A stretch of DNA of 25,418 bases from a virus. Shown in pieces: positions 7,485-23,508 of this stretch (positions are counted from its first letter, which is position 1; each line of letters opens with the position of its first letter). The notes under the pieces are model-generated. The model searched no databases. It worked only from the letters and a program-made list of their open reading frames with translations, and was not told where the DNA came from. Where the stretch lies: positions 1-25,418 of the IMG/VR virus record IMGVR_UViG_3300047333_000017; one strand, 5' to 3'. The position numbers and the translations under genes are program-made.

Positions 7485-7486
7485 CA

Positions 7487-7651
7487 TTACTCCTCGTAGT
7501 AGTCCCCAGGCACCTCGCCGCAGTCGCAGCAAGGCTCCCCGTCTCGGTGGTAGCAGTCGCAGTGCCCTTGCCATGCGCAGGGCGGCAGGTCGTCACCAGG
7601 CTCAGGCTGGTCCTCGATGTCGCCCGTGGGCGGCAAGTAGAACGGTTTCAC
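7487..7651 (-). CDS. Small cysteine-rich, probable zinc-binding protein
   Basis: 54 residues. A Pro/Asp-rich N-terminus (MKPFYLPPTGDIEDQPEPGD) is followed by CAWQGHCDCYHRDGEPCCDCG, with six Cys and two His within about 20 residues, and the acidic tail DYYEE. This density suggests one or two zinc sites. The GTG start overlaps the previous stop as GTGA with GGAG 5 bases upstream; an earlier GTG in frame would lie inside the preceding gene. Function unknown. Confidence 0.65.
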   Translation of the reverse strand: MKPFYLPPTGDIEDQPEPGDDLPPCAWQGHCDCYHRDGEPCCDCGEVPGDYYEE

Positions 7652-7818
7652 TTGCACTCCGCGTAGAACTTGTCGCCCGTGGGCGTCGTTGCGTACCCAC
7701 CAGCGCACTGCGTGTGCGTCTCCGGTACAGATCCGACCGTGGCGCAGCCGAATAGTTCCAGGATCGCCAGACCCCAGCTAACCGCGATTGTTCCCCACAG
7801 GGACTTGCGGACAGTCAT
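7648..7818 (-). CDS. Small lipoprotein-like membrane protein (possible outer spanin)
   Basis: 56 residues with a basic N-terminus (MTVRK), a hydrophobic stretch (LWGTIAVSWGLAILELF) and a possible lipobox LFGC near residue 24, leaving a mature tail of about 33 residues with two more cysteines. Phage outer spanins are short lipoproteins encoded next to a membrane-anchored inner spanin, and the upstream gene overlaps this one by 4 bases and has an N-terminal membrane segment. Against this, Phe at -2 is atypical and the tail is not Pro-rich. Localisation is more certain than role. Confidence 0.6.
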   Translation of the reverse strand: MTVRKSLWGTIAVSWGLAILELFGCATVGSVPETHTQCAGGYATTPTGDKFYAECK

Positions 7819-8087
7819 TGGTTCGCCGCCTCTTGCCCAGGCCCGAGCTTGGGGCAGTAGTTCTGCCGGTCTGCGTTCGCGTCGTTCAGGCGCTCCAGGT
7901 CTGCCATGGTGATCACGCACCCCGGGGTCTCCCGGCACTCCTGGGCGGCTCCGGCGACCACCAGGGCTGCGGCGCAACGCTTGGTGAAGCTCGCCGTGAC
8001 ACTCTTTTGTCCCAGCACATTAGCCAGCACGCTGATGCCTATCACGACCACTACGCCGATCACGTCGTACCAGTTTTCTTTGCTCAC
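7815..8087 (-). CDS. N-terminally anchored small protein (possible inner spanin or lysis accessory)
   Basis: 90 residues. After MSKENWYD comes the membrane segment VIGVVVVIGISVLANVLG, then a basic patch and a tail with four cysteines (KRCAAAL, QECRE, PGCVIT, NYCPKL) that could form disulfides in the periplasm. The GTG start makes a GTGA overlap with the upstream gene; a second GTG two codons earlier is possible. Inner spanins have this topology but normally a long coiled coil, which is weak here. The spanin reading is therefore tentative. Confidence 0.6.
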   Translation of the reverse strand: MSKENWYDVIGVVVVIGISVLANVLGQKSVTASFTKRCAAALVVAGAAQECRETPGCVITMADLERLNDANADRQNYCPKLGPGQEAANQ

Positions 8088-8317
8088 TTCCACGTACTCC
8101 CGTTGACCTGGCCATACTCGAACTTGATCCTGGAGAGCACGCCCACCAGCACCTCGTCCTTTTCGAGCATAGCGCGGGCCTTTAGTTCCGCGTCCCGGTC
8201 ATTCTCCGCGTAGATCACGTGCTCCACCGGGCACAGCTTGCGGATCACGTACTCCTTGGCGTTGGTGGGCACCGGGTAGACCACTACTGGAGCCTGTAAG
8301 CTATCGAGATCGCCCAT
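8084..8317 (-). CDS. Hypothetical protein
   Basis: 77 residues, soluble, mixed alpha/beta (APVVVYPVPTNAKEYVIRK, then DRDAELKARAMLEKDEVLVG). It lies 7 bases after the stop of the small two-helix membrane gene. The ribosome-binding site is weak (GTGAG about 8 bases upstream, shared with that stop). Unrecognised. Confidence 0.65.
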   Translation of the reverse strand: MGDLDSLQAPVVVYPVPTNAKEYVIRKLCPVEHVIYAENDRDAELKARAMLEKDEVLVGVLSRIKFEYGQVNGSTWK

Positions 8318-8324
8318 ATCTTGC

Positions 8325-8471
8325 TCACTTGCGGTCGAACTCCAGGCGAGTCAGGATCGACACCAGGACCATCGCGCAGAACCACACCGGACGGTTGGGT
8401 GTGTCAGCAATGAAGTTCCAGAAAGCATAGATCGTCCAGAGAAATAGGCCAATCAGGCCGAGTTGCTTCAC
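8325..8471 (-). CDS. 48-residue membrane protein with two transmembrane helices (holin-like candidate)
   Basis: The protein starts MKQLGLIGLFLWTIYAFWNF (first helix), has a short polar turn with Pro (ADTPNRP), a second helix (VWFCAMVLVSIL) and a charged tail (TRLEFDRK). The GTG start overlaps the upstream stop as GTGA with GGAG 6 bases before it. Two-helix hairpins of this kind occur in small class II holins, though those are usually 60 residues or more. It lies two genes upstream of the lipoprotein-like gene. Membrane location is well supported; the holin role is a guess. Confidence 0.6.
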   Translation of the reverse strand: MKQLGLIGLFLWTIYAFWNFIADTPNRPVWFCAMVLVSILTRLEFDRK

Positions 8472-8893
8472 AGCTTGCTCCAGTGCCTGCAGTCGGCAGA
8501 AGCAACGGCAGAATCTTGCACAGCCTTGTTCTGCTTTGGGTTTTCGTGCTCGATTAGGTCAATGTTCGTCGGGAAACCGTGCGCATCACTGCCTACGCCC
8601 TCGTCCCATTGGACAGTGATGTCCTCATCCGAGAAACACTTAGGTGGTCGCAAGCTGATCACCGTACCGTGCCATTTTTTACCCAGATGCCCGTGCCGCT
8701 TGTGCTGGATCCGGTCCCCTACCGCGAATCCGCCCTTGGTCTTGGGTGTCTCTGGCAGTTCCTTCTCCAGCTCAGCGATGCGCTTTTCTCTAGCGTCCAG
8801 CTGGGCAGTGATTTCTCTTAGGGAATCACCAAGCTCATTGTAGGATTCCTCTAGCAGGCTTATGGCTTTATTGATACGGTCTAGTGCGCTCAC
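8468..8893 (-). CDS. Coiled-coil protein with an SH3/KOW-like domain
   Basis: 141 residues. The first 50 form an amphipathic coiled coil (ISLLEESYNELGDSLRE, AREKRIAELEKEL). From about residue 55 comes a beta-barrel-like stretch, FAVGDRIQHKRHGHLGKKWHG, with the basic loop and VGD-R pattern of KOW/SH3-like folds. AGGAG lies 7 bases before the GTG. The gene two places upstream carries a similar FKVGDRFAYNDEARREGEIL module, so the pair may share a nucleic-acid or protein-binding role. Function unknown. Confidence 0.7.
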   Translation of the reverse strand: MSALDRINKAISLLEESYNELGDSLREITAQLDAREKRIAELEKELPETPKTKGGFAVGDRIQHKRHGHLGKKWHGTVISLRPPKCFSDEDITVQWDEGVGSDAHGFPTNIDLIEHENPKQNKAVQDSAVASADCRHWSKL

Positions 8894-8894
8894 C

Positions 8895-9266
8895 CTAGTT
8901 CTCCTGCTGCCCGCAAATTTCCTTGACGGCCCCGAGGACAGTCCTGACCGTGTTCATAGGCACACCGGTCTTCTTGTCCTTGAGGTGCTTGAATACCTCG
9001 TACTCGCCCTCCATGACCACCTGGCGGCATGGGTCGTTGTACAGCGCTAGAATCATCTGCTCAGCCTGGTGCAGCTTCTGGGTGTAGCTCATGCCCTGGA
9101 AGTGTACGGCCTCCCAGAACAGCTTAGCCATGTCGTTCAGGTCGGTGCCCATCTTGTGTACCGTCAGGGCGCCGTCTGCCGCGATTCGGAACACCGGCCC
9201 GTCCTCGTCTGGCTTGTACCAGACCAGGTCACCGTTGGACTGCATCTTGAGTCCCCCGTCAGCCAT
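8895..9266 (-). CDS. Hypothetical protein
   Basis: 123 residues. The N-terminal part is beta-like (GLKMQSNGDLVWYKPDEDG, FRIAADGALTVHKMGTD); the rest is helical (QKLHQAEQMILALYNDPCRQ). It overlaps the upstream gene by eight bases (ATGGCTGA) and has only a weak SD, fitting coupled translation. Unrecognised. Confidence 0.7.
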   Translation of the reverse strand: MADGGLKMQSNGDLVWYKPDEDGPVFRIAADGALTVHKMGTDLNDMAKLFWEAVHFQGMSYTQKLHQAEQMILALYNDPCRQVVMEGEYEVFKHLKDKKTGVPMNTVRTVLGAVKEICGQQEN

Positions 9267-9723
9267 GCTGATCCAGGAACTGGTCGATTTGTCCCGCGAC
9301 GTAGGCAGCGTCCTCGTCTGTTACCGCGCCGTGCTCGATCTCCTCCGCGTACTCCTTGATTCCGCGCATTACCTCCACGGCATTGGCGACGATCTTCTCC
9401 AGCCGAGCGCGGTCGTGGTACAGCTCGTTCAGCAGCTGCTCAGTGCGCTTGTCTGGTTTCGGCGTACCGAGAACTTGCTCAGGCGTGGATGCGGGAAGCT
9501 GCCACCGGTAGGGAGAAGTAAAGTATCCATTGAACTGCGGTGGATTCGTGAGGTTGATCAGCTTGCTCTCGGCCAGGACGTGCGTGTGATCACGAAGATT
9601 TCCCTTCTCATCGTAGTACGACACTTCGACGGTCCCAGCCAGATGGTTGACCTTGAGGATCTCGCCCTCGCGGCGCGCCTCGTCGTTGTACGCGAACCGG
9701 TCACCGACCTTGAACTTGCTCAT
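9259..9723 (-). CDS. Hypothetical protein with SH3/KOW-like N-terminus
   Basis: 154 residues. Residues 1-50 (MSKFKVGDRFAYNDEARREG, then TVEVSYYDEKG) look like a small beta barrel. Helices follow, including an acidic segment (VMRGIKEYAEEIEHGAVTDE). GGGGAG lies about 5 bases before the ATG, and the start overlaps the upstream stop by ATGA. No enzymatic motif is visible. Confidence 0.72.
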   Translation of the reverse strand: MSKFKVGDRFAYNDEARREGEILKVNHLAGTVEVSYYDEKGNLRDHTHVLAESKLINLTNPPQFNGYFTSPYRWQLPASTPEQVLGTPKPDKRTEQLLNELYHDRARLEKIVANAVEVMRGIKEYAEEIEHGAVTDEDAAYVAGQIDQFLDQHG

Positions 9724-9893
9724 GCGCGCTCCCCGTGTTGGTACTCTCTGGCTATGACAGGGAACTGCTGCAGAAGTTCCACCTGATCCGGTGGGTTGAT
9801 CAGGGAAATGTCCGTAAAATACGCCGCCTCTTGCCTCTGCATCCGCTCGAAGTAGCTCCTTGTGCGCCAGGGGTGGTCACTCTTCTGTTTCAT
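9720..9893 (-). CDS. Small hypothetical protein downstream of terminase small subunit gene
   Basis: 57 residues, from MKQKSDHPWRTRSYFERMQR to REYQHGERA, amphipathic and charged. It overlaps the terminase small subunit-like gene by 17 bases and the next gene by ATGA, with GAGG 8 bases before the ATG. Its tight fit between two genes supports it. Function unknown. Confidence 0.65.
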   Translation of the reverse strand: MKQKSDHPWRTRSYFERMQRQEAAYFTDISLINPPDQVELLQQFPVIAREYQHGERA

Positions 9894-10527
9894 CGTCTTG
9901 CCTCGGTTTCTTGATCGTTGACTTCACCTTCGCGGGCTTCGGCGCCTTGAGTTTGGCTCCAGGGACCGGCGCGCGCTTGGGTGGTTCTTTGTTGGCGAGA
10001 TCCTTGTCGAGCATCATCCCCGCAACGATCCTGCCAAGCCACTGCTTCGCCTCATCCAGGCTCTTGCCCTTGTGGTGCACGTCAACGTCAATCGGCCCCG
10101 CGTCCTTGCCGGTGACCTGTGTCTTGCTGCCCCAGTCGGAGCGGTTGTGGTATCTCAGCCAGTTGGTCGCCGCCTGCGTGTCTCCCGCGAGACCGCGCAG
10201 GAACAGCGTCCGACCCAGGTTCGCCTTGGAGAACTCGAAGGCCGTGTTCAGCTCGTAGTCGAAGAGCTTCTCCAGGTACTGGCGCGTGATCCCAAGCATC
10301 TTCGCGATGGCGTCGTGGCTGACCCCTGAGGCTGCTAGATCGGCCACAAACGTCCGGTGCTTCGGGGTGACGTTGTCCGCGAGGTGCGGGACTACGCCCT
10401 CCTCGATCTTCCGCAGGTTTCGCAGCTCCTGCTGCAGCGGCACGCCGCCACCTAAGGCAACGAAACGCTCGAAGCGCCGCAGCTGCTCCGTGTCTACCTG
10501 GTCATCAATGTCGATGTCCTCAGACAT
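9877..10527 (-). CDS. Terminase small subunit-like DNA-binding protein
   Basis: 216 residues. At about 66-125 it has a helix-turn-helix followed by the pattern seen in many small terminase subunits: GVSHDAIAKMLGITRQYLEK, an acidic/aromatic helix (FDYELNTAFEFSKANLG), then GLAGDTQAATNWLRYHNRSD with the recurring G(D/N)xxAxxxWL. The C-terminal 50 residues are Lys/Pro-rich and probably disordered. The small subunit recognises packaging sites and loads the large subunit. Several small genes separate it from the large terminase, which is unusual but not rare. It shares ATGTCTGA or TGATG junctions with the two frames upstream. Confidence 0.7.
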   Translation of the reverse strand: MSEDIDIDDQVDTEQLRRFERFVALGGGVPLQQELRNLRKIEEGVVPHLADNVTPKHRTFVADLAASGVSHDAIAKMLGITRQYLEKLFDYELNTAFEFSKANLGRTLFLRGLAGDTQAATNWLRYHNRSDWGSKTQVTGKDAGPIDVDVHHKGKSLDEAKQWLGRIVAGMMLDKDLANKEPPKRAPVPGAKLKAPKPAKVKSTIKKPRQDDETEE

Positions 10528-10768
10528 CAGGGAATGCGTCCAGCTGAGGGCTTACCTGCTGCGCCCGGACCAGTCTTCGCCCGTATGCTGCTTGGGCTTC
10601 GCGAAAGCGGTGTGGATCCCTGGACATCGTCAGGTAGTGGCTTGCGCATACCATCTTTCCCCGGACCGTTGCCTGGGGGTGGTTGCGGCACGGCTCTCCC
10701 CGGCTTCTGCCGGTCAGGCGCACGCCCTGGCACTTTGCGCTGGTGTTCGAGGACGACGACGCACTCAT
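10520..10768 (-). CDS. Small zinc-binding-like protein in an overlapping frame
   Basis: 82 residues. After a Ser-rich start comes CQGVRLTGRSRGEPCRNHPQ, then VRGKMVCASHYLT. This resembles small phage zinc proteins with the pattern C..T.+.G.PC+...GK..C..H. Codon choice along this frame looks natural. Its ATG overlaps the stop of the 10765-11253 ORF by ATGA, but it lies almost wholly inside another ORF (10527-10952). There is no strong SD, so it might instead be the continuation of that ORF after a frameshift. Confidence 0.55.
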   Translation of the reverse strand: MSASSSSNTSAKCQGVRLTGRSRGEPCRNHPQATVRGKMVCASHYLTMSRDPHRFREAQAAYGRRLVRAQQVSPQLDAFPDV

Positions 10769-10952
10769 CGGGCCGCACTTCGACCTTTGCCAGCCTTGCG
10801 ATCAGTGCCACTGCGTCCCCGGCGGCTAATCTTAGCTCCACAGGTGCATCCTTCCACGCCGCAAGCACCATCTGCGATATACGGGCCAGCTGGTTCAGTA
10901 CTGCCGGTGCCTGCTGGAACAGCTTCGCCGGGTCGATTTCTGGTTGTGACAT
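10527..10952 (-). CDS. Overlapping ORF; natural N-terminal half, low-complexity C-terminal half
   Basis: 141 residues. The first 75 or so (MSQPEIDPAKLFQQAPAVLN, VLAAWKDAPVELRLAAGDAV) look like a normal helical protein. After residue 75, where the zinc-binding-like frame starts, the sequence becomes Pro/Arg/Gly-rich (PGRAVPQPPPGNGPGKDG), typical of out-of-frame reading. Its stop TGA shares a base with the terminase small subunit start (TGATG). No strong SD precedes the ATG. Either a long overlapping gene pair or a frameshifted single gene. Confidence 0.5.
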   Translation of the reverse strand: MSQPEIDPAKLFQQAPAVLNQLARISQMVLAAWKDAPVELRLAAGDAVALIARLAKVEVRPDECVVVLEHQRKVPGRAPDRQKPGRAVPQPPPGNGPGKDGMRKPLPDDVQGSTPLSRSPSSIRAKTGPGAAGKPSAGRIP

Positions 10953-11253
10953 CTGCGTTCACCAATGCCTCTGTGACCTTACCGTAATCCCTCAGCATCG
11001 CCCGCTGCACCATCACCTGTGACTGTAGCTCGTTCGCAAGGAACCCGGCGCTGGCCTCGTTGCGCTTCAGTTGCACGCCCTCACGCGCGAGCCGGTCTAC
11101 CTCGGATTGTAGTTGCCGGATTGTCGTCCCTGACTGCCTCAAGCTGACCTCAAAAGTACTGAACAGCTGGCTGCCTTCAGCCAGTTGCTCGATGGTTTGC
11201 TTGGGTAGAATCGCCCGCAGTAGGCGCGTCAGAAGGGATCTCTTGGCTGTCAC
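10765..11253 (-). CDS. Hypothetical protein; C-terminal third overlaps another gene
   Basis: 162 residues. Residues 1-100 are helical and coiled-coil-like (QTIEQLAEGSQLFSTFEV, IRQLQSEVDRLAREGVQLK). From about residue 101, where the next ORF begins in another frame, it turns into low-complexity Gly/Arg/Ala sequence. The GTG start has AGGTGA 5 bases upstream and an extended -10 promoter (11297-11302) before it. Its TGA overlaps the ATG of the 10520-10768 gene. The N-terminal part is well supported, the real C-terminus less so. Confidence 0.6.
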   Translation of the reverse strand: MTAKRSLLTRLLRAILPKQTIEQLAEGSQLFSTFEVSLRQSGTTIRQLQSEVDRLAREGVQLKRNEASAGFLANELQSQVMVQRAMLRDYGKVTEALVNADVTTRNRPGEAVPAGTGSTEPAGPYIADGACGVEGCTCGAKISRRGRSGTDRKAGKGRSAAR

Positions 11254-11296
11254 GTTGTCACCTGGGCTGCCCGACGTGGGCTATCCTTGTGTGCCT

Positions 11297-11302
11297 ATTA
11301 TA
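11297..11302 (-). promoter_or_regulatory. Extended -10 promoter before the packaging region
   Basis: Leftward GTGTGATATAATAGG contains a perfect TATAAT preceded by TG-A (extended -10). The TGA is also the stop of the upstream gene. The -35 region is poor, as is usual for extended -10 promoters. Transcription would start near 11290, about 37 bases before the GTG of the next gene. Confidence 0.5.
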
Positions 11303-11545
11303 TCACACGCCCCCAAGCACCCGGCTCAGGTACAGGCTCTTGATCCGCTCCTGCAGCAGCCGCGCGTCGTCCTCCAGCCTGGGGTTCAGCTTCGCCTCGA
11401 CCTCGGCCAGTGACCGGGCCGACAGGCTCACCATCTCGCGCTCGATCAGCGACAATCCCTCCATGTCCAGCTTGTGCAGCTCAGCCACGGCAGAGGCCAG
11501 GGCGATGATCTTGAGTGCCCGCAGCTTGCTGTCTTTGATGTTCAT
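11303..11545 (-). CDS. Small helical hypothetical protein
   Basis: 80 residues, all-helical (MNIKDSKLRALKIIALASAV, LSLIEREMVSLSARSLAEVE), ending LYLSRVLGGV. GGAGAAG lies 5-6 bases before the ATG, which overlaps the preceding stop by ATGA. A frame extending 74 codons upstream is an artefact covering the preceding gene. No family recognised. Confidence 0.7.
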   Translation of the reverse strand: MNIKDSKLRALKIIALASAVAELHKLDMEGLSLIEREMVSLSARSLAEVEAKLNPRLEDDARLLQERIKSLYLSRVLGGV

Positions 11546-11715
11546 GTCTTCTCCGGTTGGCAGATCGCCTTCATCACTGAACGCGGGCCGGTCACCATGG
11601 CGCGGGCGTCCTCCTGGCACCGGGACTGGCTGTATCCATGCAGCCGGTCGATCACGGTATGCGTGCGGCCATCCGGCTGCAGCACCTGGATCCAGAACAC
11701 CAGCACCCAGGTCAT
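11542..11715 (-). CDS. Small hypothetical protein with hydrophobic N-terminus
   Basis: 57 residues. The N-terminal MTWVLVFWIQVLQPDG is hydrophobic; the rest (RTHTVIDRLHGYSQSRCQED) is polar and looks like a small alpha/beta domain, and HTVIDRLHGYSQSRCQEDAR suggests a short strand plus helix. Both ends overlap neighbours by ATGA, and AGGGA precedes the start. Function unknown. Confidence 0.6.
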   Translation of the reverse strand: MTWVLVFWIQVLQPDGRTHTVIDRLHGYSQSRCQEDARAMVTGPRSVMKAICQPEKT

Positions 11716-11825
11716 CGCCGTTCCCTGTCCATCTGGCGCGAGATCGCCCGGTACTTGTCCATCTCATCCAGGATCACCAGCACGGTGAACATGACCCACA
11801 TCCCCCAGAGCATGCCCCAGATCAT
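11712..11825 (-). CDS. 37-residue single-pass membrane peptide
   Basis: MIWGMLWGMWVMFTVLVILD forms a Trp/Met-rich membrane helix, followed by the charged tail EMDKYRAISRQMDRERR. The start and stop each overlap a neighbouring gene by ATGA. It is one of two adjacent 37-residue membrane peptides. The charged tail should be cytoplasmic if the N-terminus is outside, but topology is not decided by the sequence. Confidence 0.55.
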   Translation of the reverse strand: MIWGMLWGMWVMFTVLVILDEMDKYRAISRQMDRERR

Positions 11826-11935
11826 TGGAACAGCCGGAAGCGTTCCCCGCTTTCCAGCTCCTCCAGGAACTCGGCAGCCACAATGGCGGCAACCAAAATT
11901 GCCACGCCCATCGCGAATAGCATCAGGCCGTTCAT
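11822..11935 (-). CDS. 37-residue single-pass membrane peptide
   Basis: MNGLMLFAMGVAILVAAIVA is a membrane helix, followed by the acidic AEFLEELESGERFRLFQ. It overlaps the upstream gene and the next micro-gene by ATGA, which supports translation despite a weak SD. Size and topology resemble phage or host small membrane regulators; no specific role can be assigned. Confidence 0.55.
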   Translation of the reverse strand: MNGLMLFAMGVAILVAAIVAAEFLEELESGERFRLFQ

Positions 11936-12321
11936 TGCCGCACCGCCGGGTATGGATAGGCTTCGGCGTACGCCAGTGCCTCGCGGACACCGACGCGGAC
12001 ACGGGCTGCCCAGTATACCTCCATCTGCTGATCGTTCAGGGCGTCCAGTCGGGATCCGATGCCCTGGTCATGCAGGCTAACCGGGGGCGGCGGGTCTCGG
12101 TACTCGACGTTGTCGTCTTCGACCTTCTGTGTCGTGCCGTCAGGTCGGTTGACGCCAAGGAACATCAGCAGCTCCGTGCGTGCGCTAATCGGGAAGGGCT
12201 GGATGTCCAGCTCAGCGTTGATTTGCTCCAGCGCGTCGTCCAGGGTGCCGACGTAGCCGTCTGGGTTTGCCGTAGCGGCGTCGTAGGACGTGCGCCGGAT
12301 GTCTGTCTGTGCCTTGCTCAT
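11932..12321 (-). CDS. Hypothetical protein
   Basis: 129 residues from MSKAQTDIRRTSYDAATANP, with an acidic middle (TQKVEDDNVEYRDPPPPVS) and a helical C-terminus (QQMEVYWAARVRVGVREA) ending YPYPAVRQ. GGAG lies 9 bases before the ATG, and the start overlaps the upstream stop by ATGA. The frame extends 46 codons upstream in Arg/Gly-rich artefact sequence. Not recognised. Confidence 0.68.
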   Translation of the reverse strand: MSKAQTDIRRTSYDAATANPDGYVGTLDDALEQINAELDIQPFPISARTELLMFLGVNRPDGTTQKVEDDNVEYRDPPPPVSLHDQGIGSRLDALNDQQMEVYWAARVRVGVREALAYAEAYPYPAVRQ

Positions 12322-12641
12322 TTCACCACTCCTTGCAACTCCGTTTTGCTGCCGCTCCGCTGGATCGCGCGAAGGCTGGCCATCATGCCTAGAGGATCGT
12401 CTGGCGGCTCCGCCTTGCGGGTTTGCGCCGGGTCCTGAACAACATCGACATTGTCCCAACCAACCGTGGCTCGCTTACCGGCGACGCGGGTGGCGACCTT
12501 CTGGCTACCGTAGGTCTGGTATCCGCCGTCCAGTTCCGAGACCCAGCGCCCAGTGCGCGAGGACCAATACGAATCACCCTTCACTGCGTCGAGGCGGCGC
12601 ACTACGAATCTTTCTTTGCCGTTCAGTCTTTTGGTGTTCAT
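12318..12641 (-). CDS. Hypothetical protein
   Basis: 107 residues starting MNTKRLNGKERFVVRRLDAV. The first 70 residues look beta-rich (YWSSRTGRWVSELDGGYQTY), followed by a linker and a short helix. GGAGG stands about 8 bases before the ATG, which overlaps the preceding TGA (TGATG). It is second in the unit driven by the leftmost repeated promoter. Function unknown. Confidence 0.68.
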   Translation of the reverse strand: MNTKRLNGKERFVVRRLDAVKGDSYWSSRTGRWVSELDGGYQTYGSQKVATRVAGKRATVGWDNVDVVQDPAQTRKAEPPDDPLGMMASLRAIQRSGSKTELQGVVK

Positions 12642-12850
12642 CACAGCACCTCCAGGACGATGTTGTCGCCGTGGCCGGGGTTGACGACGCGCTCGACCTG
12701 GAAGCCAGCGGCCTTCAAGTTCGAGACGTCCAAGTTGGTCAGGGTCTTCTGGCCCTTGAAGATCGCCAGGTGTACGGCCAGGGCGTTGGCCGGGTAGAGT
12801 TTGTCCACCCCGTACACCGACTTCTGTTCGACTTGCACTACGTTTTCCAT
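12641..12850 (-). CDS. Small hypothetical protein behind repeated promoter copy 1
   Basis: 69 residues (MENVVQVEQKSVYGVDKLYP to GHGDNIVLEVL), a compact alpha/beta pattern without membrane segments. GGAGAGATGAG before the ATG is shared almost exactly with the leader of the 13198-13662 gene, so promoter, leader and ribosome-binding site look duplicated as a block. Unknown function; a small, strongly expressed protein is expected. Confidence 0.68.
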   Translation of the reverse strand: MENVVQVEQKSVYGVDKLYPANALAVHLAIFKGQKTLTNLDVSNLKAAGFQVERVVNPGHGDNIVLEVL

Positions 12851-12863
12851 CTCATCTCTCCAA

Positions 12864-12917
12864 TTGGTTGTTCTACTGGGGGCTATATTAGCACACCCAG
12901 TAGAGCTGTCAACGACC
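12864..12917 (-). promoter_or_regulatory. Repeated promoter/operator cassette, copy 1
   Basis: Leftward strand: -35 TTGACA (12907-12912), 16-base spacer, -10 TAATAT (12885-12890). An inverted repeat brackets the -10, with arms TCTACTGGG and CCCAGTAGA (12871-12880 and 12896-12905; the outermost base of one arm is changed in this copy). Start of transcription would be near 12878, 27 bases before the gene. A 52-base core is nearly identical to copies 2 and 3. Confidence 0.8.
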
Positions 12918-13111
12918 TATTTCGGTCCGTCGTTGTGAATTTCGCGCACTTCGACATCGTTGCTGCCGCTAACGTCCATTGCCTGCTCAACCATTGCGCT
13001 CCAAGACTTGTATCCGGCATCCGTAGCGAAAGCCTCTTTTGCGGCGGCGAGCGTAGACCCGGCGTAGTTTCCGAAATCAACCCCGTTAGCAGAAAAGTTG
13101 TACATCGTCAT
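12917..13111 (-). CDS. Small hypothetical protein behind repeated promoter copy 2
   Basis: 64 residues (MTMYNFSANGVDFGNYAGST to DVEVREIHNDGPK), acidic with a helical middle (LAAAKEAFATDAGYKSW). AGGAG lies 8 bases before the first ATG; an ATG two codons later is also possible. Its stop codon is part of the sequence that leads into promoter copy 1. It is the only gene of its unit, as expected for an independent cassette. Function unknown. Confidence 0.68.
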   Translation of the reverse strand: MTMYNFSANGVDFGNYAGSTLAAAKEAFATDAGYKSWSAMVEQAMDVSGSNDVEVREIHNDGPK

Positions 13112-13132
13112 TTTCCTATCTCCTATCTCAGG

Positions 13133-13192
13133 TTGGTTGCTCTACTGGGGGCTATATTAGCACACCCAGTAGAGCTGTCAACGACTATTTTG
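13133..13192 (-). promoter_or_regulatory. Repeated promoter/operator cassette, copy 2
   Basis: Leftward -35 TTGACA (13176-13181), 16-base spacer, -10 TAATAT (13154-13159). The inverted repeat is perfect, with 10-base arms CTCTACTGGG and CCCAGTAGAG (13140-13149 and 13165-13174) flanking the -10. Just upstream, AAAATAGTCGT occurs twice in a row, once spanning the stop codon of the preceding gene. Confidence 0.82.
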
Positions 13193-13197
13193 GACGA

Positions 13198-13662
13198 CTA
13201 TTTTGTGATGACTGCCTCGACAATTTCACCGCCCTGGGTGCGGCTGGCCAGCTTCATTGCCAGATCCAGGCGGCTGCACCACCCCTGACTCCATACCAGG
13301 TACTGACCGTCTTCGGTCTTCCAGGCGTCCGCGTTGCCGGCATCGTGCTCTGCCAGGCGCACAGCAACGTACCCCTCCTCACCGCCCTCCAGCTCTGCCT
13401 TGGCTCTGGCAATGCGCTCCGGGGTGACGTCGTAGATGCACGGGGAGCCGTCTCGGAAGGTACTGTAGATCTTGCCGTCGCTGGCGGCCAGCAGCTTGGT
13501 ATAGTCCAGGTCCATGCGCCACTTGGAGCGGGCCTGCTTTTCGGCGTCCTTGCGCGCTTCTGAGACCAGCTTTTTGCCGATCACCATGTGCGTGTATACC
13601 TTGTTCTGGCTGCTGCGAGTCCAGGTGTGGCCATGTGCGGTTGCGGTGTGCTTGGTGTTCAT
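13198..13662 (-). CDS. Hypothetical protein behind repeated promoter copy 3
   Basis: 154 residues. The N-terminal half is basic (HGHTWTRSSQNKVYTHMVIG, SEARKDAEKQARSKWRMDLD); the C-terminal half is mixed, with WCSRLDLAMKLASRTQGGE. GGAGAGATGAG precedes the ATG. The repetitive strand pattern and His/Trp at the start do not match a family I know. It stands alone between promoter copies 3 and 2. Confidence 0.7.
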   Translation of the reverse strand: MNTKHTATAHGHTWTRSSQNKVYTHMVIGKKLVSEARKDAEKQARSKWRMDLDYTKLLAASDGKIYSTFRDGSPCIYDVTPERIARAKAELEGGEEGYVAVRLAEHDAGNADAWKTEDGQYLVWSQGWCSRLDLAMKLASRTQGGEIVEAVITK

Positions 13663-13675
13663 CTCATCTCTCCAG

Positions 13676-13736
13676 TTGGTTGCTCTACTGGGGGCTATAT
13701 TAGCACACCCAGTAGAGCTGTCAACGACTATTTTGA
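13676..13736 (-). promoter_or_regulatory. Repeated promoter/operator cassette, copy 3
   Basis: Leftward -35 TTGACA (13719-13724), 16-base spacer, -10 TAATAT (13697-13702), with perfect 10-base inverted repeat arms at 13683-13692 and 13708-13717. The leader to the ATG (AACCAACTGGAGAGATGAG) differs from copy 1 by a single base. Confidence 0.82.
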
Positions 13737-13826
13737 GATTTGGGTCACAATTTTAGGCTGCGACCCCCTTCAGCTTCGCCATCTCAGCGCCAAGGGTCCA
13801 GAGCGCCTGGTTCAGGCCGACATCGA

Positions 13827-13855
13827 ACTATAGGGCATCCCAATGGGGATTGCAA
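13827..13855 (-). promoter_or_regulatory. Sigma70-like promoter in the intergenic region
   Basis: Leftward TTGCAA (13850-13855), a 17-base spacer and TATAGT (13827-13832). The spacer holds a small inverted repeat, ATCCC-AATG-GGGAT. It lies between the terminator at 13868-13910 and promoter copy 3. Only short open frames follow it (for example a 9-codon frame MAKLKGVAA), so its product may be a leader RNA. Confidence 0.5.
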
Positions 13856-13867
13856 GCACTACGTCAC

Positions 13868-13910
13868 AAAAAGAAAAACCCGCCGCAGGCTGGGGAAACC
13901 TGGGCGGGTT
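13868..13910 (-). terminator. Rho-independent terminator of the leftward nucleotide-enzyme operon
   Basis: On the leftward strand AACCCGCC (13903-13910) pairs with GGCGGGTT (13877-13884), with inner CAGG/CCTG pairing, followed by TTTCTTTTTG. This is a textbook stem and U-tract. It would end transcripts of the operon that closes at 13958. Confidence 0.85.
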
Positions 13911-13956
13911 GTGTCGTCTGGCCTGGGGGGAACAGACCGGTGGGGCGCGCAGTTCG

Positions 13957-13962
13957 ATTATA
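13957..13962 (-). promoter_or_regulatory. Extended -10 promoter overlapping a stop codon
   Basis: Leftward TGTGCTATAATCG gives a perfect TATAAT with TG-C before it. Its TAA is the stop of the 13958-14161 gene. The -35 is poor. A transcript starting near 13950 would reach the terminator after about 80 nt. Confidence 0.45.
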
Positions 13963-14161
13963 GCACAGCCATCTTGCGCTGGCCGTGCCGGGGCAGCTTC
14001 AGCCAGTCCCCCTGGTCCACCGTCTCCAGGGTGATCCGCTCCTCCAAAAGGCCCGTAGACTCGTAGAACGCCTGCGAGCGCGTCATCTTGACCTTGCCGG
14101 GAATTGCCCAGGACTTGGGCAACAGGACCAGCTTCTCAGCTCCTATGCGTTGATTGATCAT
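13958..14161 (-). CDS. Hypothetical protein, last gene of the leftward operon
   Basis: 67 residues from MINQRIGAEKLVLLPKSWAI, basic, ending LPRHGQRKMAVL. GGAGG lies several bases before the ATG, which overlaps the preceding stop by ATGA. Alternating strands and a short helix (MTRSQAFYESTGLLEERI) suggest a small folded domain. No recognised family. It is the last gene before the terminator. Confidence 0.68.
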   Translation of the reverse strand: MINQRIGAEKLVLLPKSWAIPGKVKMTRSQAFYESTGLLEERITLETVDQGDWLKLPRHGQRKMAVL

Positions 14162-14901
14162 TTCGGCTCCTCCGTCAGCGCAAGCCACTGCGCACCAGGG
14201 ACTTGCATGCTGATGAGGATCTGCACCACACCCTCCGCGAATTTTCCCAATAACTCGTCGGCAGCTCTCACGGCGCCAGCGGCGTAGGCAACGGCTTCGG
14301 CGGCAGCGTAGGCGGCGGCAACGGCGCAGGCGGGGGAAGAGGCGGCGTCGGCGGCGTGGGCGGCGGCGTCGGCGGCGTGGGCGGCGACGTGGGCGGCGGC
14401 GGCGGCGGCGAAGGCGACGGCACCGGCTGCACCGGCTGCGAGGGCGGCGTCGGCGGCGGCGGCGTAGGCGTCCTTAAAGTCTGTCACTGCTGCGCACTGG
14501 TCTGCGTGATAGATCAGTATCTCGGCTTGCGCTGGATTGAGTTTGGCAACCGCACGTAGAGCATCAGGAACCGACGTATTAACAGCCAGCAGTGCGGTGC
14601 GTTTGGAAAACTCCTGCTCGTCCAAGTTCCCGGCGCTGCCCAGCTGAATCAACCCAAGGCGGCGCAGTCCCTTAGCTCTGGCAGTATCGGAAGACCACAT
14701 GCTGTCGTTCAGCCGTATTTTCAGTCCACGCAATGCCTGCGAGACGCACTGCGGGTCGTCGCCGTGCGGCAACCCCAAGGCGTAGCATACGGCTGCCTCA
14801 ACACACATCTGTCCTGGCACTGGTTGGCCGATACCATCAATCAAACCAGCGTCAATCGTATCCAGAACCTTACGGGCGACGGTTTCGTTTATTTCGACCA
14901 T
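14158..14901 (-). CDS. Phage hypothetical protein with long alanine-rich repeat tail
   Basis: 247 residues. The first 140 form a conserved-looking domain (QMCVEAAVCYALGLPHGDDP, LRGLKIRLNDSMWSS, KGLRRLGLIQLGSAG) that I recognise as a recurring phage protein type of unknown function. Residues 145-214 are an Ala-dominated repeat (AAHAADAAAHAADAA), also usual in that type and likely one extended helical array. At the DNA level this gives GGCGGC-rich simple repeats at about 14278-14470. GAAGGAGAG precedes the ATG at 14899-14901; a 22-codon longer frame overlaps the upstream small gene. Confidence 0.78.
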   Translation of the reverse strand: MVEINETVARKVLDTIDAGLIDGIGQPVPGQMCVEAAVCYALGLPHGDDPQCVSQALRGLKIRLNDSMWSSDTARAKGLRRLGLIQLGSAGNLDEQEFSKRTALLAVNTSVPDALRAVAKLNPAQAEILIYHADQCAAVTDFKDAYAAAADAALAAGAAGAVAFAAAAAAHVAAHAADAAAHAADAASSPACAVAAAYAAAEAVAYAAGAVRAADELLGKFAEGVVQILISMQVPGAQWLALTEEPK

Positions 14902-15034
14902 TGATCTCTCCTTCGATTGTGTCAAAGATCCACCACAGAATGTACCCCACAGCCGCAAAGAAAGCAATCGCCGCCATGAGATTGACGCATCCGTACTCCC
15001 AGGCAGAGACGGCGACCTGGTCTACGCCGTCCAT
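14870..15034 (-). CDS. 54-residue single-pass membrane protein
   Basis: The N-terminal half, MDGVDQVAVSAWEYGCVNLM, leads into the membrane helix AAIAFFAAVGYILWWIF, and the C-terminus is strongly basic (NGRNKRNRRP), suggesting a cytoplasmic tail. It overlaps the upstream gene by 13 bases and the Ala-rich gene by 32, so it would be coupled to both. GGAA lies about 7 bases before the ATG. An internal ATG at residue 20 would still keep the helix. Function unknown. Confidence 0.5.
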   Translation of the reverse strand: MDGVDQVAVSAWEYGCVNLMAAIAFFAAVGYILWWIFDTIEGEINGRNKRNRRP

Positions 15035-15405
15035 TCGTTTTCCGCGTCCTGCAGCTGCGGGATCAGGTCCGGGTACCCCAGCCGCTCCAGGGCAAGGGAT
15101 GCCTGGTCCCCAAAGATCGCCTTTACTCTGCCGCGACCATTGGGTGTGGCGTCGTACACTTCCGCCAGCCCCAAAGCCTCCAGGTCGGTCCTGGACCCCT
15201 GGATGAAGCCGTACAGGAAGCCCTCGAAGGTCTCCGAGTCCTGGGCTGGGTGCAGTCGCAGATCGAGACGCTTCGTTCCCCTCGGCGTGCGGGCGTAACT
15301 GGTCAGCTCCAGCAGGAAGCCGACGTCCCCGGTCTTCACCGGGAAGCGATCATTGCCAACCCACTTGCCGTCAAATTCTTGTGCGTGCTCTCGAATCGTT
15401 GTCAT
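15022..15405 (-). CDS. Hypothetical protein
   Basis: 127 residues (MTTIREHAQEFDGKWVGNDR ... LQDAENEWTA), beta-rich first half (VGFLLELTSYARTPRG, RLDLRLHPAQDS) and a helical second half. AAGGAG and AAGGG precede the ATG, which shares a base with the upstream stop (TGATG). The upstream extension of the frame (32 codons) belongs to the preceding gene. No motif found. Confidence 0.7.
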   Translation of the reverse strand: MTTIREHAQEFDGKWVGNDRFPVKTGDVGFLLELTSYARTPRGTKRLDLRLHPAQDSETFEGFLYGFIQGSRTDLEALGLAEVYDATPNGRGRVKAIFGDQASLALERLGYPDLIPQLQDAENEWTA

Positions 15406-15716
15406 CACCCTTTCTCCTTGTAACCGTGGTCTTTCGCGTCTTGTGGACACAGCGTCGAGTACCAGCCGTTTCTGTACATCAGACTGGCTGGCTTCCCGCA
15501 AAGTTCACAAGTGGTCGCGCTTTTTTCCTGTGCCTCGGCAATCGCGCGGTCGATGCTGTCATCCATCTCAAGATCGCCTGGGGTGTAGTAGATGCGGAGC
15601 GTGCCGTACTTCTCTTTCACCTGGTCAACGGTCCCGCCGACATCCTTGATCATCGCGACGATGGGGTCGATCAGGTGGTTCCAACCGGCCCCACACTCGT
15701 AGTTGCTTTCTGGCAT
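15405..15716 (-). CDS. Conserved phage protein with a C-terminal zinc finger
   Basis: 103 residues from MPESNYECGAGWNHLIDPIV. The pattern VDQVKEKYGTLRIYY followed by CELCGKPASLM...GWYSTLC is one I know from many phages: an alpha/beta domain whose VKEKFGTLR-like segment precedes a CxxC...C zinc site. Function unknown, possibly nucleic-acid binding. It begins inside the end of the upstream gene (46-base overlap). A start 14 codons earlier would lie deeper in that gene. Confidence 0.7.
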   Translation of the reverse strand: MPESNYECGAGWNHLIDPIVAMIKDVGGTVDQVKEKYGTLRIYYTPGDLEMDDSIDRAIAEAQEKSATTCELCGKPASLMYRNGWYSTLCPQDAKDHGYKEKG

Positions 15717-15862
15717 GACGTGCTCTGCGGTATCTTGCGCCAGTGCGTGATGTGCCACTGGCTGTAGTCGAAGCGGTCGTACCTCAGTACTTTCCCGCGC
15801 TGTGTAAGGATCCGCTCGCCCTGCTTAGGCTGCTGTTCGAGCATGTTGATCCACGTCTCCAT
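15671..15862 (-). CDS. Small DUF551-like phage protein
   Basis: 63 residues. It begins METWINMLEQQPKQGERILT and later has YDRFDYSQWHITHWRKIPQ. WI...xQxPxxGExVL...HW+xIP is the layout of DUF551-type proteins, common in phages and prophages, of unknown role. GAGG lies 5-6 bases before the ATG. The last 15 residues or so overlap the next gene and look less conserved. Confidence 0.65.
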   Translation of the reverse strand: METWINMLEQQPKQGERILTQRGKVLRYDRFDYSQWHITHWRKIPQSTSCQKATTSVGPVGTT

Positions 15863-15868
15863 TATACC

Positions 15869-16120
15869 TCAGAACTCCGTCAGCTGAGACACGTCCACGG
15901 GCTTGGGCTTCGGCGGCTCCCAGTCACGGAACTCGCAAGCCTCCTGAGCCAGGTACTGCAGAATAGCGCCCCCGTTCTCGTCGGGAACATTCACGAATAC
16001 CTCTTCAGCCATCTGCCAGGGGCCACCCAGGAACATGCCCAGCACCTTCCGGCCACGAGGTGACTCTGCCTTGTAGACCATCACGCCCTGCTTGTTCCGG
16101 GCGCGTACGACGTCGCTCAC
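15869..16120 (-). CDS. Hypothetical protein next to the nuclease gene
   Basis: 83 residues beginning MSDVVRARNKQGVMVYKAES, with a central alpha/beta segment (KVLGMFLGGPWQMAEEVFVN) and the C-terminus PPKPKPVDVSQLTEF. The GTG start overlaps the nuclease stop as GTGA with GGAAGG close upstream. A longer frame running into the nuclease gene is rejected. Unknown function. Confidence 0.65.
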   Translation of the reverse strand: MSDVVRARNKQGVMVYKAESPRGRKVLGMFLGGPWQMAEEVFVNVPDENGGAILQYLAQEACEFRDWEPPKPKPVDVSQLTEF

Positions 16121-16914
16121 AGGCCCTTCCGGCAGTACCAAAGGTCGAGCAGCGCCGCGAATGCCCTGCGCCCGCTGTCGATCTCGCTCTGGCTCCATGT
16201 CACCGGGATGAAGTGACCGCACTCGCTGCGGGAGACGAACAGGTTCACCGCGATGAACTGCCTCTCGAATGGGTCACCGTACGCCGCGAGCTGGGTGACG
16301 TGCTCGTCGTACGCCAGCACCTTGCTGTCCTGGGCGCGGGTGAACTCCTTGACCTTGAAGTCTAGCACCAGAGGCGGCTTTTCAGGGTGGGTGCCAATCA
16401 GGTCACGCTTGCCCCCGTACCATAGGCCGTTAATCTGCCAGGAGAAGCTGCTCTCTGGATCCCAGCTGTACCCTGGAAATTTTTCCTCGATCCATTGGAT
16501 CGCTGGCAATACCCAAGGAAAATCGTCAGCTGTGCAGGCGATTGTGTCTCGCTTGAAGTATGACTCCATCAGGCCGTGAAGGTACGTCCCACGATCTGCG
16601 GCCTTGTGAACTTGCTCCTTGGAGTCTGCCAGGGCGCGCTCGATGAACCGGGTGTCGTCCTCGCCCTCCAGCCTGGGGAGAGTAAGGCACGAAAGCATCC
16701 CCTGTTTTACAAGCCACGCAGTCAGTTGCGGCTTGGCCTCCAGCTTGAGGATCGTGGAGACGCTGGGAACCAGGTCCAGCTTGCGCGCGTCACGGAGAGT
16801 GGTGGAGCGCAGCTTGCCGTTGGCGCCGACGATATCGTACATCGGCTGACCGGTCTTGGTGTACCAGTGGCCGCTCTCGCTGGCGAAGTCCTTTCCGGTG
16901 GCGAGCAGGCTCAC
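16117..16914 (-). CDS. PD-(D/E)XK nuclease of the RecB/Cas4/exonuclease type
   Basis: 265 residues. Motifs in order: RGTYLHGLME at 108-117 (the GxxxH region), GGKRDLIG at 167-174 (metal-binding D171), VLDFKVK at 183-189 (D185-x-K187, the D/ExK pair) and HVTQLAAY at 205-212 (the QxxxY motif). All active-site motifs of RecB-family nucleases are present. Such phage enzymes process double-stranded ends, often with an SSB or annealing protein, and one SSB-like gene lies in the same operon. It starts at a GTG in a GTGA overlap with AAGGA upstream. Confidence 0.85.
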   Translation of the reverse strand: MSLLATGKDFASESGHWYTKTGQPMYDIVGANGKLRSTTLRDARKLDLVPSVSTILKLEAKPQLTAWLVKQGMLSCLTLPRLEGEDDTRFIERALADSKEQVHKAADRGTYLHGLMESYFKRDTIACTADDFPWVLPAIQWIEEKFPGYSWDPESSFSWQINGLWYGGKRDLIGTHPEKPPLVLDFKVKEFTRAQDSKVLAYDEHVTQLAAYGDPFERQFIAVNLFVSRSECGHFIPVTWSQSEIDSGRRAFAALLDLWYCRKGL

Positions 16915-17564
16915 GCCGCTTCCTTGTCACGCACCGACTTCGGCACCTCGTCACCGTCGAGAAGGATCTTGAAGTACTGCTTCGAGCTGCTGTGGTACAG
17001 GATGATCCCCTCAGGCTTCATGTACCCAGGCGCAGCGACGCTGCCCTCGGTGCGCAGACGCTCCAGTTGCTCCTCGACTCCGCTGGGTAGCACGTACCCC
17101 AGCAACGGGACAACGTGGCAGCACGCGGGCCGCTCCTGCTTGCCGTCACCCCACCGGCTGACGTTGAACAGACTGAACCGCTTCTCAGGTAGCCCGTACC
17201 CGCGCTGGATCCCGTAACCCCACCACTCACCGTAGTGGTACCCTGGACCTAATTTGGTCAGCTCGTCGGCGTGCTCGTACACCCACTGAGCGAAGCCATA
17301 GTTGTCATTCTTCGACTTGATCGCCGCTGGAGTAATGAACCGTTGCCGTGACTGCGCCAGCAGGTAGTGCGGACCCAGGGCGGCTCCGTGCTGGTCTACC
17401 AGCTCTCGGATTGCCATAACATCCGGCTGTGGCTCGATGTCGCCGTGATGGTCGCGGGTCACCGGCACCCAGACAACTGCGGCATTGGTTCCGTCCAGCT
17501 TCTCGGTGACAGCCACCTCGCGCCGGTACCGGGGAATCTTCGGGAATTCGACAAATTGAATCAC
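16911..17564 (-). CDS. RNA ligase family protein (nucleotidyltransferase)
   Basis: 217 residues with the ligase motifs: I EKLDGTN at 21-27 (catalytic K22), III-like YHYGEWWGYG at 109-118, IIIa FSLFNVSRW at 130-138, IV PEGIILY at 184-190 and V FKILL at 198-202. This fits a single-domain RNA ligase of the T4 Rnl2/DRB0094-like group without a clear C-terminal domain. Phages use such enzymes to repair tRNAs cut by host anticodon nucleases. No polynucleotide kinase is visible in the window. The GTG start makes a GTGA overlap, with AGAGGT upstream; a 32-codon longer frame is rejected. Confidence 0.85.
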   Translation of the reverse strand: MIQFVEFPKIPRYRREVAVTEKLDGTNAAVVWVPVTRDHHGDIEPQPDVMAIRELVDQHGAALGPHYLLAQSRQRFITPAAIKSKNDNYGFAQWVYEHADELTKLGPGYHYGEWWGYGIQRGYGLPEKRFSLFNVSRWGDGKQERPACCHVVPLLGYVLPSGVEEQLERLRTEGSVAAPGYMKPEGIILYHSSSKQYFKILLDGDEVPKSVRDKEAA

Positions 17565-17971
17565 GTTTGTACCTCTCGATCCACCTTCCGCGCCCCAGGA
17601 GCCAACGGCGCCCCGCCATACTGCTCGTGCAGCTCCTGGGACCACATCAGCGCACGCCACGCGAGCTGGCTGACCTCCGTCAAGAGCGCGGCCACTTCGG
17701 CATCGTACTCTTCGGTACCGGGCGTGATCGGGTTGCGCGCCAGGTACGCCTCTATGTCAGCGACATCCACCGCGTGACGCAGAATGCAGTCCGGATGGTC
17801 AGTGGACTTGCCGCGCGAGTGGTGGAGCGGCTGACCAGGGTTGTGCTTGTCGTTGCCGTCGATGGAAATCTTGGCGACCCCAGCCATTGCTGCGGGGGCG
17901 TACTTCAGCACCCCACTGTAGAGTGGGTGACGCTTGCGGGCGGCGCTGTCGGTCGGGAGTGTCATGTTCAT
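17561..17971 (-). CDS. dATP/dGTP diphosphohydrolase-like protein (DUF5664)
   Basis: 136 residues from MNMTLPTDSAARKRHPLYSG. The signature VLKYAPAAMAGVAKIS, GNDKHNPGQPLHHSRGKSTD, HPDCILRHAVD and LAWRALMWSQELHEQYGG matches the DUF5664 family as I know it, now named for a dATP/dGTP diphosphohydrolase domain. Family members occur in phages that remodel deoxynucleotide pools. MazG-like and DUF4406 proteins are encoded close by. ATGA overlap at the start with AAGG 8 bases upstream; an 80-codon longer frame is an artefact. Confidence 0.82.
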   Translation of the reverse strand: MNMTLPTDSAARKRHPLYSGVLKYAPAAMAGVAKISIDGNDKHNPGQPLHHSRGKSTDHPDCILRHAVDVADIEAYLARNPITPGTEEYDAEVAALLTEVSQLAWRALMWSQELHEQYGGAPLAPGARKVDREVQT

Positions 17972-18399
17972 GCTCGTGCCTTTATCATTGCGTTGATCTG
18001 GCCGAAAATCACGTCCAGGACGTCCTCCGGCGCAAACTCGTGCGCGGTTGCCATCTCGTCGTCGTACTCCCAGAACTTGAAGCCCTGGAGCAGGCCGACA
18101 AACGCCTCCAGCTTCGCGCCCTTGGACTTGTGCCACCCAGGCAGGAAGACGATCCCCTCGATGCCGGTGTCGGCCAGCAGCTTCACGTCGCGGGCCAGGA
18201 AGTCGCCCCATGTGCGGCTCGCGCTTTTTGGGTCTCCATCCTTCGACAGCAGTGCGGCGCCCTTGTCCTCGGCGTCGTCCAGCTCAGCCGGGGAAACAAC
18301 CTCGAAGCCCTGAGTCCGCAGCTCTGCGGCGGCTGCGTAGAATGCCGGGAAATTGAATTGGGGAAAATTTGACATCGGTCCCGCGAGATACACGCGCAT
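17968..18399 (-). CDS. DUF4406 / nucleoside 2-deoxyribosyltransferase-like protein
   Basis: 143 residues. The N-terminus MRVYLAGPMSNFPQFNFPAF, then AAAELRTQGFEVVSPAEL, WGDFLARDVKLLADT and IVFLPGWHKSKGAKLEAF, follow the DUF4406 pattern: a Rossmann-like fold related to nucleoside deoxyribosyltransferases, which exchange bases on deoxynucleosides. The W-S-GAxxE region matches the substrate pocket of that fold. AAGGAG lies 7 bases before the ATG. The neighbours deal with nucleotides, which supports the assignment. Confidence 0.85.
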   Translation of the reverse strand: MRVYLAGPMSNFPQFNFPAFYAAAAELRTQGFEVVSPAELDDAEDKGAALLSKDGDPKSASRTWGDFLARDVKLLADTGIEGIVFLPGWHKSKGAKLEAFVGLLQGFKFWEYDDEMATAHEFAPEDVLDVIFGQINAMIKARA

Positions 18400-18400
18400 C

Positions 18401-18667
18401 TCACAACTCCTTGGGGTACACGTCCCCGTTCTGGACAGCCTTCGCGTCCTCGTACGCCGCACCTATTCTGCGGTACAGCTCCAGCTTCGCGCACTCCAGC
18501 GCGCCGACGACGTCGTTGAGCGTCTTGTAGCTCAGGCCACCGTTCTGCTGGATGTACTCGATAGACAGCGCCGTGAACTGAAAGTTCAGCTCCCCAGGGG
18601 TAGTTGCTACGTACTCAATGCAGCCAGGGTCCAGCGTCTTTCGGTCTTCTTCAGGTATGTACGGCAT
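18401..18667 (-). CDS. Conserved phage hypothetical protein in the nucleotide module
   Basis: 88 residues: MPYIPEEDRKTLDPGCIEYV, then PGELNFQFTALSIEYIQQ and LNDVVGALECAKLELYRRIG with NGDVYP at the end. I recognise this as a widespread small phage family (MPYI...GELN...GALE.AKLE.YRR...NGDVY) of unknown function, all-helical, often near MazG genes. The later of two close ATGs is preferred (GGAG 7 bases before); it overlaps the MazG end by 17 bases. Confidence 0.75.
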   Translation of the reverse strand: MPYIPEEDRKTLDPGCIEYVATTPGELNFQFTALSIEYIQQNGGLSYKTLNDVVGALECAKLELYRRIGAAYEDAKAVQNGDVYPKEL

Positions 18668-18998
18668 TGCCATGCTCCCACTTGCGTTTGCCACGTCGGC
18701 CCTCGATCTTTTCCATGTTCGAGACCATAACCTCGTTCATCGAGATGTTGTACTCCTGGGCGATCCGGCACAGGTAATGCAAAACATCACCCAGCTCCAG
18801 GGTCAGCTCGCGATGGTCAAGAGGGCCGTCACCACGGATCTCTTTCTTGATCAGCTCCGTGACCTCACCGGCTTCGCCAACCAGGCCGAGCGTCATCACC
18901 ACAAGGTCTCGCAACGGCTCTCGTTTTTTGGTCCAGCCCAGGCTCACCCAGTCCGCAAAGTTGTCGAGACTGATGCCGTCGTACTCTCTGTTGATCAT
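18651..18998 (-). CDS. MazG-like nucleotide pyrophosphohydrolase
   Basis: 115 residues with the all-alpha NTP pyrophosphohydrolase motif ExxE(12-28)ExxD: LVGEAGEVTELIKKEI (E42, E45) and LELGDVLHYLCRIA (E68, D71), which binds Mg and the triphosphate. Enzymes of this fold hydrolyse (d)NTPs to (d)NMPs. Phage versions adjust dNTP pools or lower ppGpp signalling. AGGTGA about 8 bases before the ATG; the gene overlaps its upstream neighbour by ATGA. Confidence 0.87.
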   Translation of the reverse strand: MINREYDGISLDNFADWVSLGWTKKREPLRDLVVMTLGLVGEAGEVTELIKKEIRGDGPLDHRELTLELGDVLHYLCRIAQEYNISMNEVMVSNMEKIEGRRGKRKWEHGNAVHT

Positions 18999-19117
18999 AG
19001 CCGCGTCACCTGCAGATGTGTGTGCGGCAACTGGGTTGGCCAGATGTGTGCCGCGTATGCCGCCGTGAGGGCGACCCCGATGAATGCCCCGGTCAGATAC
19101 TTCGCAAGGTCTCTCAT
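18995..19117 (-). CDS. 40-residue membrane or secreted peptide
   Basis: MRDLAKYLTGAFIGVALTAA followed by YAAHIWPTQLPHTHLQVTRL: one hydrophobic segment (about 8-24) after a short basic start, and a small tail. Both ends overlap neighbours by ATGA, and GGGAGA lies 4-5 bases before the start. Too short for family assignment. Confidence 0.55.
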   Translation of the reverse strand: MRDLAKYLTGAFIGVALTAAYAAHIWPTQLPHTHLQVTRL

Positions 19118-20440: not shown

Positions 20441-20511
20441 GTCGTCTCTCCTGTAATTAGATGCACCGTCGTTTCGTGACAGGTGCGACCACGCTGCTCT
20501 TTGGCTATCCG

Positions 20512-21984: not shown

Positions 21985-21990
21985 CAGTAC

Positions 21991-23159: not shown

Positions 23160-23166
23160 GCTGAAC

Positions 23167-23187: not shown

Positions 23188-23191
23188 ACCC

Positions 23192-23503: not shown

Positions 23504-23508
23504 GCTTG

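Follow-up and report, generated by a model that had tools for sequence, protein, structure and literature searches.

A repeated promoter-like element with a dyad on its -10 hexamer at a site of small-gene turnover in a virus genome record

Described systems and how the locus compares with them

The nearest published bacteriophage case for the locus described here is the extended start-associated sequences (ESAS) of the cluster K mycobacteriophages, a family of 46- to 47-bp intergenic repeats which stand before small genes and combine SigA-like -35 and -10 hexamers with an inverted repeat, and for which a repeat-binding regulator of as yet unproven role has been proposed (PMC3203893, PMC11373665). 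In archaeal viruses, including SIRV2 and SMV2, early anti-defence regulons join many small, unrelated genes behind a conserved strong promoter that is specific to the virus; some of them contain inverted repeats, which are thought to bind a repressor (PMC11065993). The PeSLs of T4-like phages, as PMC4503421 describes them after Arbiol 2010 and Comeau 2014, place a promoter and a stem-loop between swapped accessory genes. Cluster O mycobacteriophages carry 17-bp palindromes, and in one case a gene was acquired or lost between direct repeats of 17 bp (PMC4351075).

The window analysed here, a stretch of 25,418 nt, is the whole of the 25.4-kb virus record IMGVR_UViG_3300047333_000017, which is probably a fragment. 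It holds three near-identical copies of a repeat that, like ESAS, has its -35 and -10 inside the repeat (TTGACA-16-TAATAT in all three copies). The two elements nevertheless lack sequence similarity and differ in architecture, which we checked for ESAS on the Adephagia sequence: the ESAS arms (15 to 17 bp) include the -35 and the -10 with the axis between them, whereas the 11-bp arms here flank the -10 and the axis lies on it, and the 13-bp SAS GGGATAGGAGCCC that is found next to the start codon in ESAS is absent here. As in the archaeal regulons, several small unrelated genes follow one conserved strong promoter; those regulons, however, have TATA/BRE promoters with measured early expression, whereas the promoters predicted here are of the sigma70 type. 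Neither an Aca8 gene nor any known anti-defence protein was found here.

The likeness to PeSLs lies in a promoter with a stem-loop at sites of gene exchange. PeSLs are described as promoter-terminator composites, whereas here the promoter itself falls within the stem-loop and a U-tract is lacking; moreover, the PeSLs so described come from T4-like genomes, whereas the best named terminase relatives here are 62-kb Caulobacter phages, at 42%. The DNA ejection protein families of genome G002 likewise count against a T4-like genome. With cluster O the locus has repeated dyads in common, but the cluster O palindromes number more than 30 copies, many of them inside genes, and are not tied to promoters. 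The element appears to work like ESAS, the archaeal regulons, and the PeSLs, but it lacks defining features of ESAS and PeSL.

The three copies and their surroundings

The copies take the form of a sigma70-type promoter with TGn ahead of the -10, and the 52-base core given by the sequence-only reading is present at all three of its positions, in each case to be read on the minus strand (Table 1). Over TTGACA-GCTCTACTGGG-TGTGC-TAATAT-AGCC-CCCAGTAGAGC, copies 2 and 3 are identical and copy 1 is one base off, in the right arm. A 31-nt core matches the window three times with zero mismatches, and not once in 100 dinucleotide shuffles of the window; within positions 7000 to 25418, the copies are the top three promoter-like sites, each with 10 of 12 hexamer bases and TG before the -10. 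The inverted repeat around the -10 was correctly recognized from the sequence but not its length, said to be 10 bases: copies 2 and 3 have 11 bp, and copy 1, in which the tenth pair from the inside is a C-A mismatch, has 9 bp.

The cassettes have the leaders GGAGAGATGAG or TGAGATAGGAGATAGGAAA. Copies 1 and 3 do have the leader and ribosome-binding site in common, as had been noticed, and copy 2 has its own. The AAATAG upstream, taken to hold the preceding gene's stop codon, does so at copy 1, where the TAG of AAATAGGTCG ends the 64-aa gene, but not at the other two: at copy 2 the preceding stop belongs to an additional AAAATAG that lies 13 nt farther upstream, and at copy 3 the preceding frame is a remnant of a DUF932 gene, ending in TAA about 30 nt upstream.

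Table 1. Positions in the window of the repeat copies, the cassette genes, and neighboring features
Feature	Position	Strand	Details
Repeat family D2, 75 nt	12849-12923, 13118-13192, 13661-13735	-	
Copy 3	13682-13733	-	block AAATAGTCG 13733-13725; -35 TTGACA 13724-13719; arm GCTCTACTGGG 13718-13708; -10 TAATAT 13702-13697; arm CCCAGTAGAGC 13692-13682
Copy 2	13139-13190	-	block AAATAGTCG 13190-13182; -35 13181-13176; arms 13175-13165 and 13149-13139; -10 13159-13154
Copy 1	12870-12922	-	AAATAGGTCG; -35 12912-12907; arms 12906-12896 and 12880-12870 (one mismatch); -10 12890-12885
154-aa gene, cassette 3	13198-13662	-	36% identical to Caulobacter phage CcrSC/CcrBL9 proteins; phrog_32956 at 1.4e-5 (annotated as unknown function)
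64-aa gene, cassette 2	12917-13111	-	no relative found by family search
69-aa gene, cassette 1	12641-12850	-	member of a widespread phage protein family
Small-gene chain	11303-12641	-	overlaps with the 69-aa gene and internally by 1 to 4 nt
Intrinsic terminator of the upstream operon	13868-13910	-	14-bp stem, then UUUUUCUUUUU; sequence conserved in L002
Promoter TTGCAA-17-TATAGT	13827-13855	-	heads the DUF932 gene in L002; retained in the window
DUF932 gene, 3' remnant	13753-13821	-	intact in L002 (299 aa); mostly missing in the window
GGC-rich low-complexity repeats	14268-14484		inside the gene for an alanine-rich protein; L002 homologue 79% identical, also alanine-rich
63-aa protein, Fis-type helix-turn-helix	19729-19920	-	HTH_8 E 0.0027, HTH_28 E 0.0028, both below cut-off

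The terminator of the replication-side operon lies on one side of the cassettes and the TerS/TerL operon on the other, in a window whose genes with matches encode an RNA ligase, MazG, a NinB/Orf-type recombination mediator, an O-like replication initiator, and TerL. The view that each copy heads one small gene does not extend to copy 1, which leads into a chain of overlapping genes toward the terminase; this chain reaches TerS (assigned by position only) and TerL and is nearly unbroken, with two larger gaps. Searches gave no function for the 69-, 64-, and 154-aa proteins. The cassette proteins of the window had no helix-turn-helix match and no match in a defence library, in which inhibitors would not be expected. 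For the 154-aa protein, no close relative was found in viral contigs, and its structure model was too poor for a structural search. It is plausible that the three products are early or host-interaction proteins.

Gene turnover and the explanations weighed

The three close genomes available were compared: the window and two IMG/VR relatives, L001 (12 kb; TerL 98%) and L002 (53.9 kb, read as L130-L132; TerL 97%). Absence of the repeats from close relatives had been named as a finding that would speak against cassettes; both relatives carry the element, and the gene content around the cassettes differs among the three. L002 has an intact DUF932 gene, then a promoter of type B with other small genes, and then one of type A, behind which stands a 70-aa homologue of the 69-aa protein. 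L001 has another small gene followed by type A and the 69-aa gene. Upstream of copy 3, about 100 nt match L002 near-perfectly through TTGACAG and then become unrelated. Copy 3 and the type A element of L002 have a stretch of about 80 bp in common, which begins at AAAATAG and runs as far as the start codon; the genes behind them are unrelated (154 aa versus 70 aa). The small gene of L001 and the type B gene of L002 agree in the leader and first codons and otherwise differ, and CAAATCTCAAAATAGTTGTTGACAG is common to both relatives although the genes upstream of it differ. Gene turnover falls at both edges of the element, and the suggestion that the units are interchangeable cassettes is supported by these two relatives, which have different genes behind the same promoter and in which homology breaks at the promoter edges. 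The -10 is TAATAT in all three window copies and TAATCT in both relatives (exact scans with TAATAT therefore pass over L001 and L002), which suggests that the window copies have spread or been homogenized in their own lineage by recent duplication or conversion.

The explanation that we favor, with a little better than even confidence, is an array of accessory-gene cassettes under a shared promoter-operator that are exchanged by recombination at the promoter. In each cassette a small gene would follow a strong sigma70-type promoter and a short leader that holds the ribosome-binding site, with the dyad on the -10 most likely acting as an operator. Host RNA polymerase would fire all units together, presumably early in infection, and a regulator that covers the -10 would shut them together; the products may have host-interaction or anti-defence roles. 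The promoter-leader unit is the longest DNA that the cassettes have in common, and homologous recombination across it could swap, add, or remove genes while leaving expression intact. The same design with dissimilar promoter sequences, found in two other lineages that have a member of the 69-aa family, was counted in favor of this explanation, as were the placing of two of the three strongest promoters found in L002 (54 kb), which lie in the cassette region, and the precedents set by the archaeal regulons (PMC11065993) and ESAS (PMC11373665).

As the cores of the window copies are identical save the one base in copy 1, it is possible that one repressor serves all three. Two points count against the favored explanation here: the two arm sequences that occur together in the L002 genome need not be recognized by one repressor, and the half-site centers are about 26 bp apart, which is wide for a single dimer. 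The sequence-only reading had placed the repressor outside the window, which may not hold, as the window encodes a 63-aa protein with weak similarity to HTH_8 and HTH_28. This Fis-like protein is a possible candidate for a DNA-binding regulator of the element. No CI-like HTH_3 protein, integrase, or T7-like RNA polymerase scored above cut-off in these records, which are fragments, and the polymerase search was also without a match in control genomes.

The symmetry of the element can be read in a second way, which we regard as unlikely but as the most probable of the alternatives: the palindrome may act as nucleic-acid structure, either as a hairpin, in transcripts that read through from the cassette upstream, that is processed or insulates the units or as a supercoiling-dependent cruciform that hides the -10. 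The inverted repeat is the outer part of a hairpin of 16 to 17 pairs whose 3-nt loop falls on the -10, so that element and -10 fold together, and this holds for both types A and B. The folding energy is -25.9 kcal/mol for copies 2 and 3 and -19.2 kcal/mol for copy 1, with z values against shuffles of -5.95 (copy 3), -5.63 (copy 2), and -3.45 (copy 1). The arms of the type B promoter of L002, GACCCAGTA and TACTGGGTC, differ in sequence from those of type A and are likewise palindromic. Both types pair completely about an identical axis, 24 nt from the first -35 base, and among the 11 outer pairs there are 5 in which both sides are changed. The sense strand of type B, by way of G-U pairs, pairs over its whole length and the antisense strand does not, and phage G006 has two copies that are perfect palindromes with different arms. 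All of the both-side changes, however, come from a single type B sequence (L002 positions 3286 to 3328), which carries the type A 7-mer TACTGGG/CCCAGTA in swapped order. In AT-rich arrays of other phages a slid control reached an equally high covariation score, and the palindrome is incomplete in several of the copies. The lack of a U-tract in the copies means that the hairpin is not an intrinsic terminator, and the promoter's own transcript would start in the right arm, without the hairpin. The comparison of types A and B shows that symmetry is kept, and symmetry would serve a dimeric repressor no less than a hairpin. A dyad over the -10 is the usual place for repression, and published analogues have been read in this way; for these reasons, we infer an operator. 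N4-type hairpin promoters, which have short stems and are used by a virion RNA polymerase, were rejected on the sigma70 hexamers of the element.

It is less probable still that the promoters mainly serve the downstream TerS/TerL operon, in the manner of late promoters after a replication block, with the small genes as passengers. Their location, with the strong terminator that closes the upstream operon immediately before them, would suit such a role, as would the gene chain from copy 1 to TerL, in which no good terminator was found, and the scarcity of other strong promoters in L002. Three tandem copies, a dyad, and turnover between the copies would nonetheless go unexplained, and a consensus sigma70 promoter is more typical of early genes. 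We give little credence to a PeSL-type recombination element, for which shuffling would be the selected function and regulation incidental: junctions do lie at the element edges, as they do for PeSLs in T4-like phages according to PMC4503421, but any conserved promoter yields identical junctions, so that selection for shuffling is not needed, and the hairpin here has no terminator part. Simple tandem duplication of a single promoter, without common regulation, would account for copies that are near-identical and therefore young, yet it is very improbable given the different arms on the same axis in L002 and the similar architecture in other phages.

Distribution and meaning

Across the wider terminase family (78 loci or contigs, 836 kb), no TTGACA-plus-dyad element was found, the one match among 233 sites being below the control rate, and the element therefore appears to be restricted to the species group; it was not found in Caulobacter phage RLK or in phage ctpbd312 either. 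Other matches to TTGACAGCTCTACTGGG (L125, L126, and L128) proved to be near-copies of one unrelated low-GC sequence without a dyad and were set aside. The block AAAATAGTYGTTGACAG, by comparison, is a general phage promoter block, widespread in phages of very different GC content (at least 119 stretches, loci L006-L124). Among the matches listed, a -10 stands at the right distance in 82 of 104 (6 expected), and 53 have a gene start behind them (10 expected). The gene that starts downstream of AAAATAGTYGTTGACAG is often a small one.

The 69-aa family is found at no fewer than 43 phage loci (L227-L269) and has the motif VYG...YP...KT. Its model (pLDDT 84) has a beta-beta-alpha-alpha-beta order and confident structural matches among viral models only, with no match below E 0.3 in the PDB; no relative was found on plasmids. 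Promoters with at most two mismatches occur in 6 of 35 distinct upstream regions of the family, against 0.9 expected. In two AT-rich lineages (G005-G008; L076/L260), TTGACA-17-TATAAT-like promoters, dissimilar in sequence to the element here, stand in arrays of four to six, mostly with one small gene 51 to 62 nt downstream of each, the 69-aa homologue among them. Several of these promoters have a palindrome through or beside the -10, in one case perfect across the whole promoter; on covariation, as noted above, the slid control does as well. Arrays of consensus promoters that are near-identical to one another, with one small gene each, several with -10 palindromes, were seen at L278/L279 (G006), L243-L245, L251, L076, and L260.

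A broader proposal, which we put forward only tentatively and consider rather unlikely, is that arrays with a dyad on the -10 are a recurrent, independently evolved design that runs exchangeable counter-defence genes in unrelated phages, for which the 69-aa family would be a common marker gene; the dyad may then be a hairpin or cruciform switch and not a plain operator. The locus itself is a clear case of gene turnover with junctions at a promoter. If the units are co-regulated accessory cassettes, their shared promoter would be a handle for host-interaction genes that sequence families miss, as has been done for archaeal viruses. Should the recurrent array design also hold true, searches for such arrays would uncover new bacteriophage anti-defence genes.
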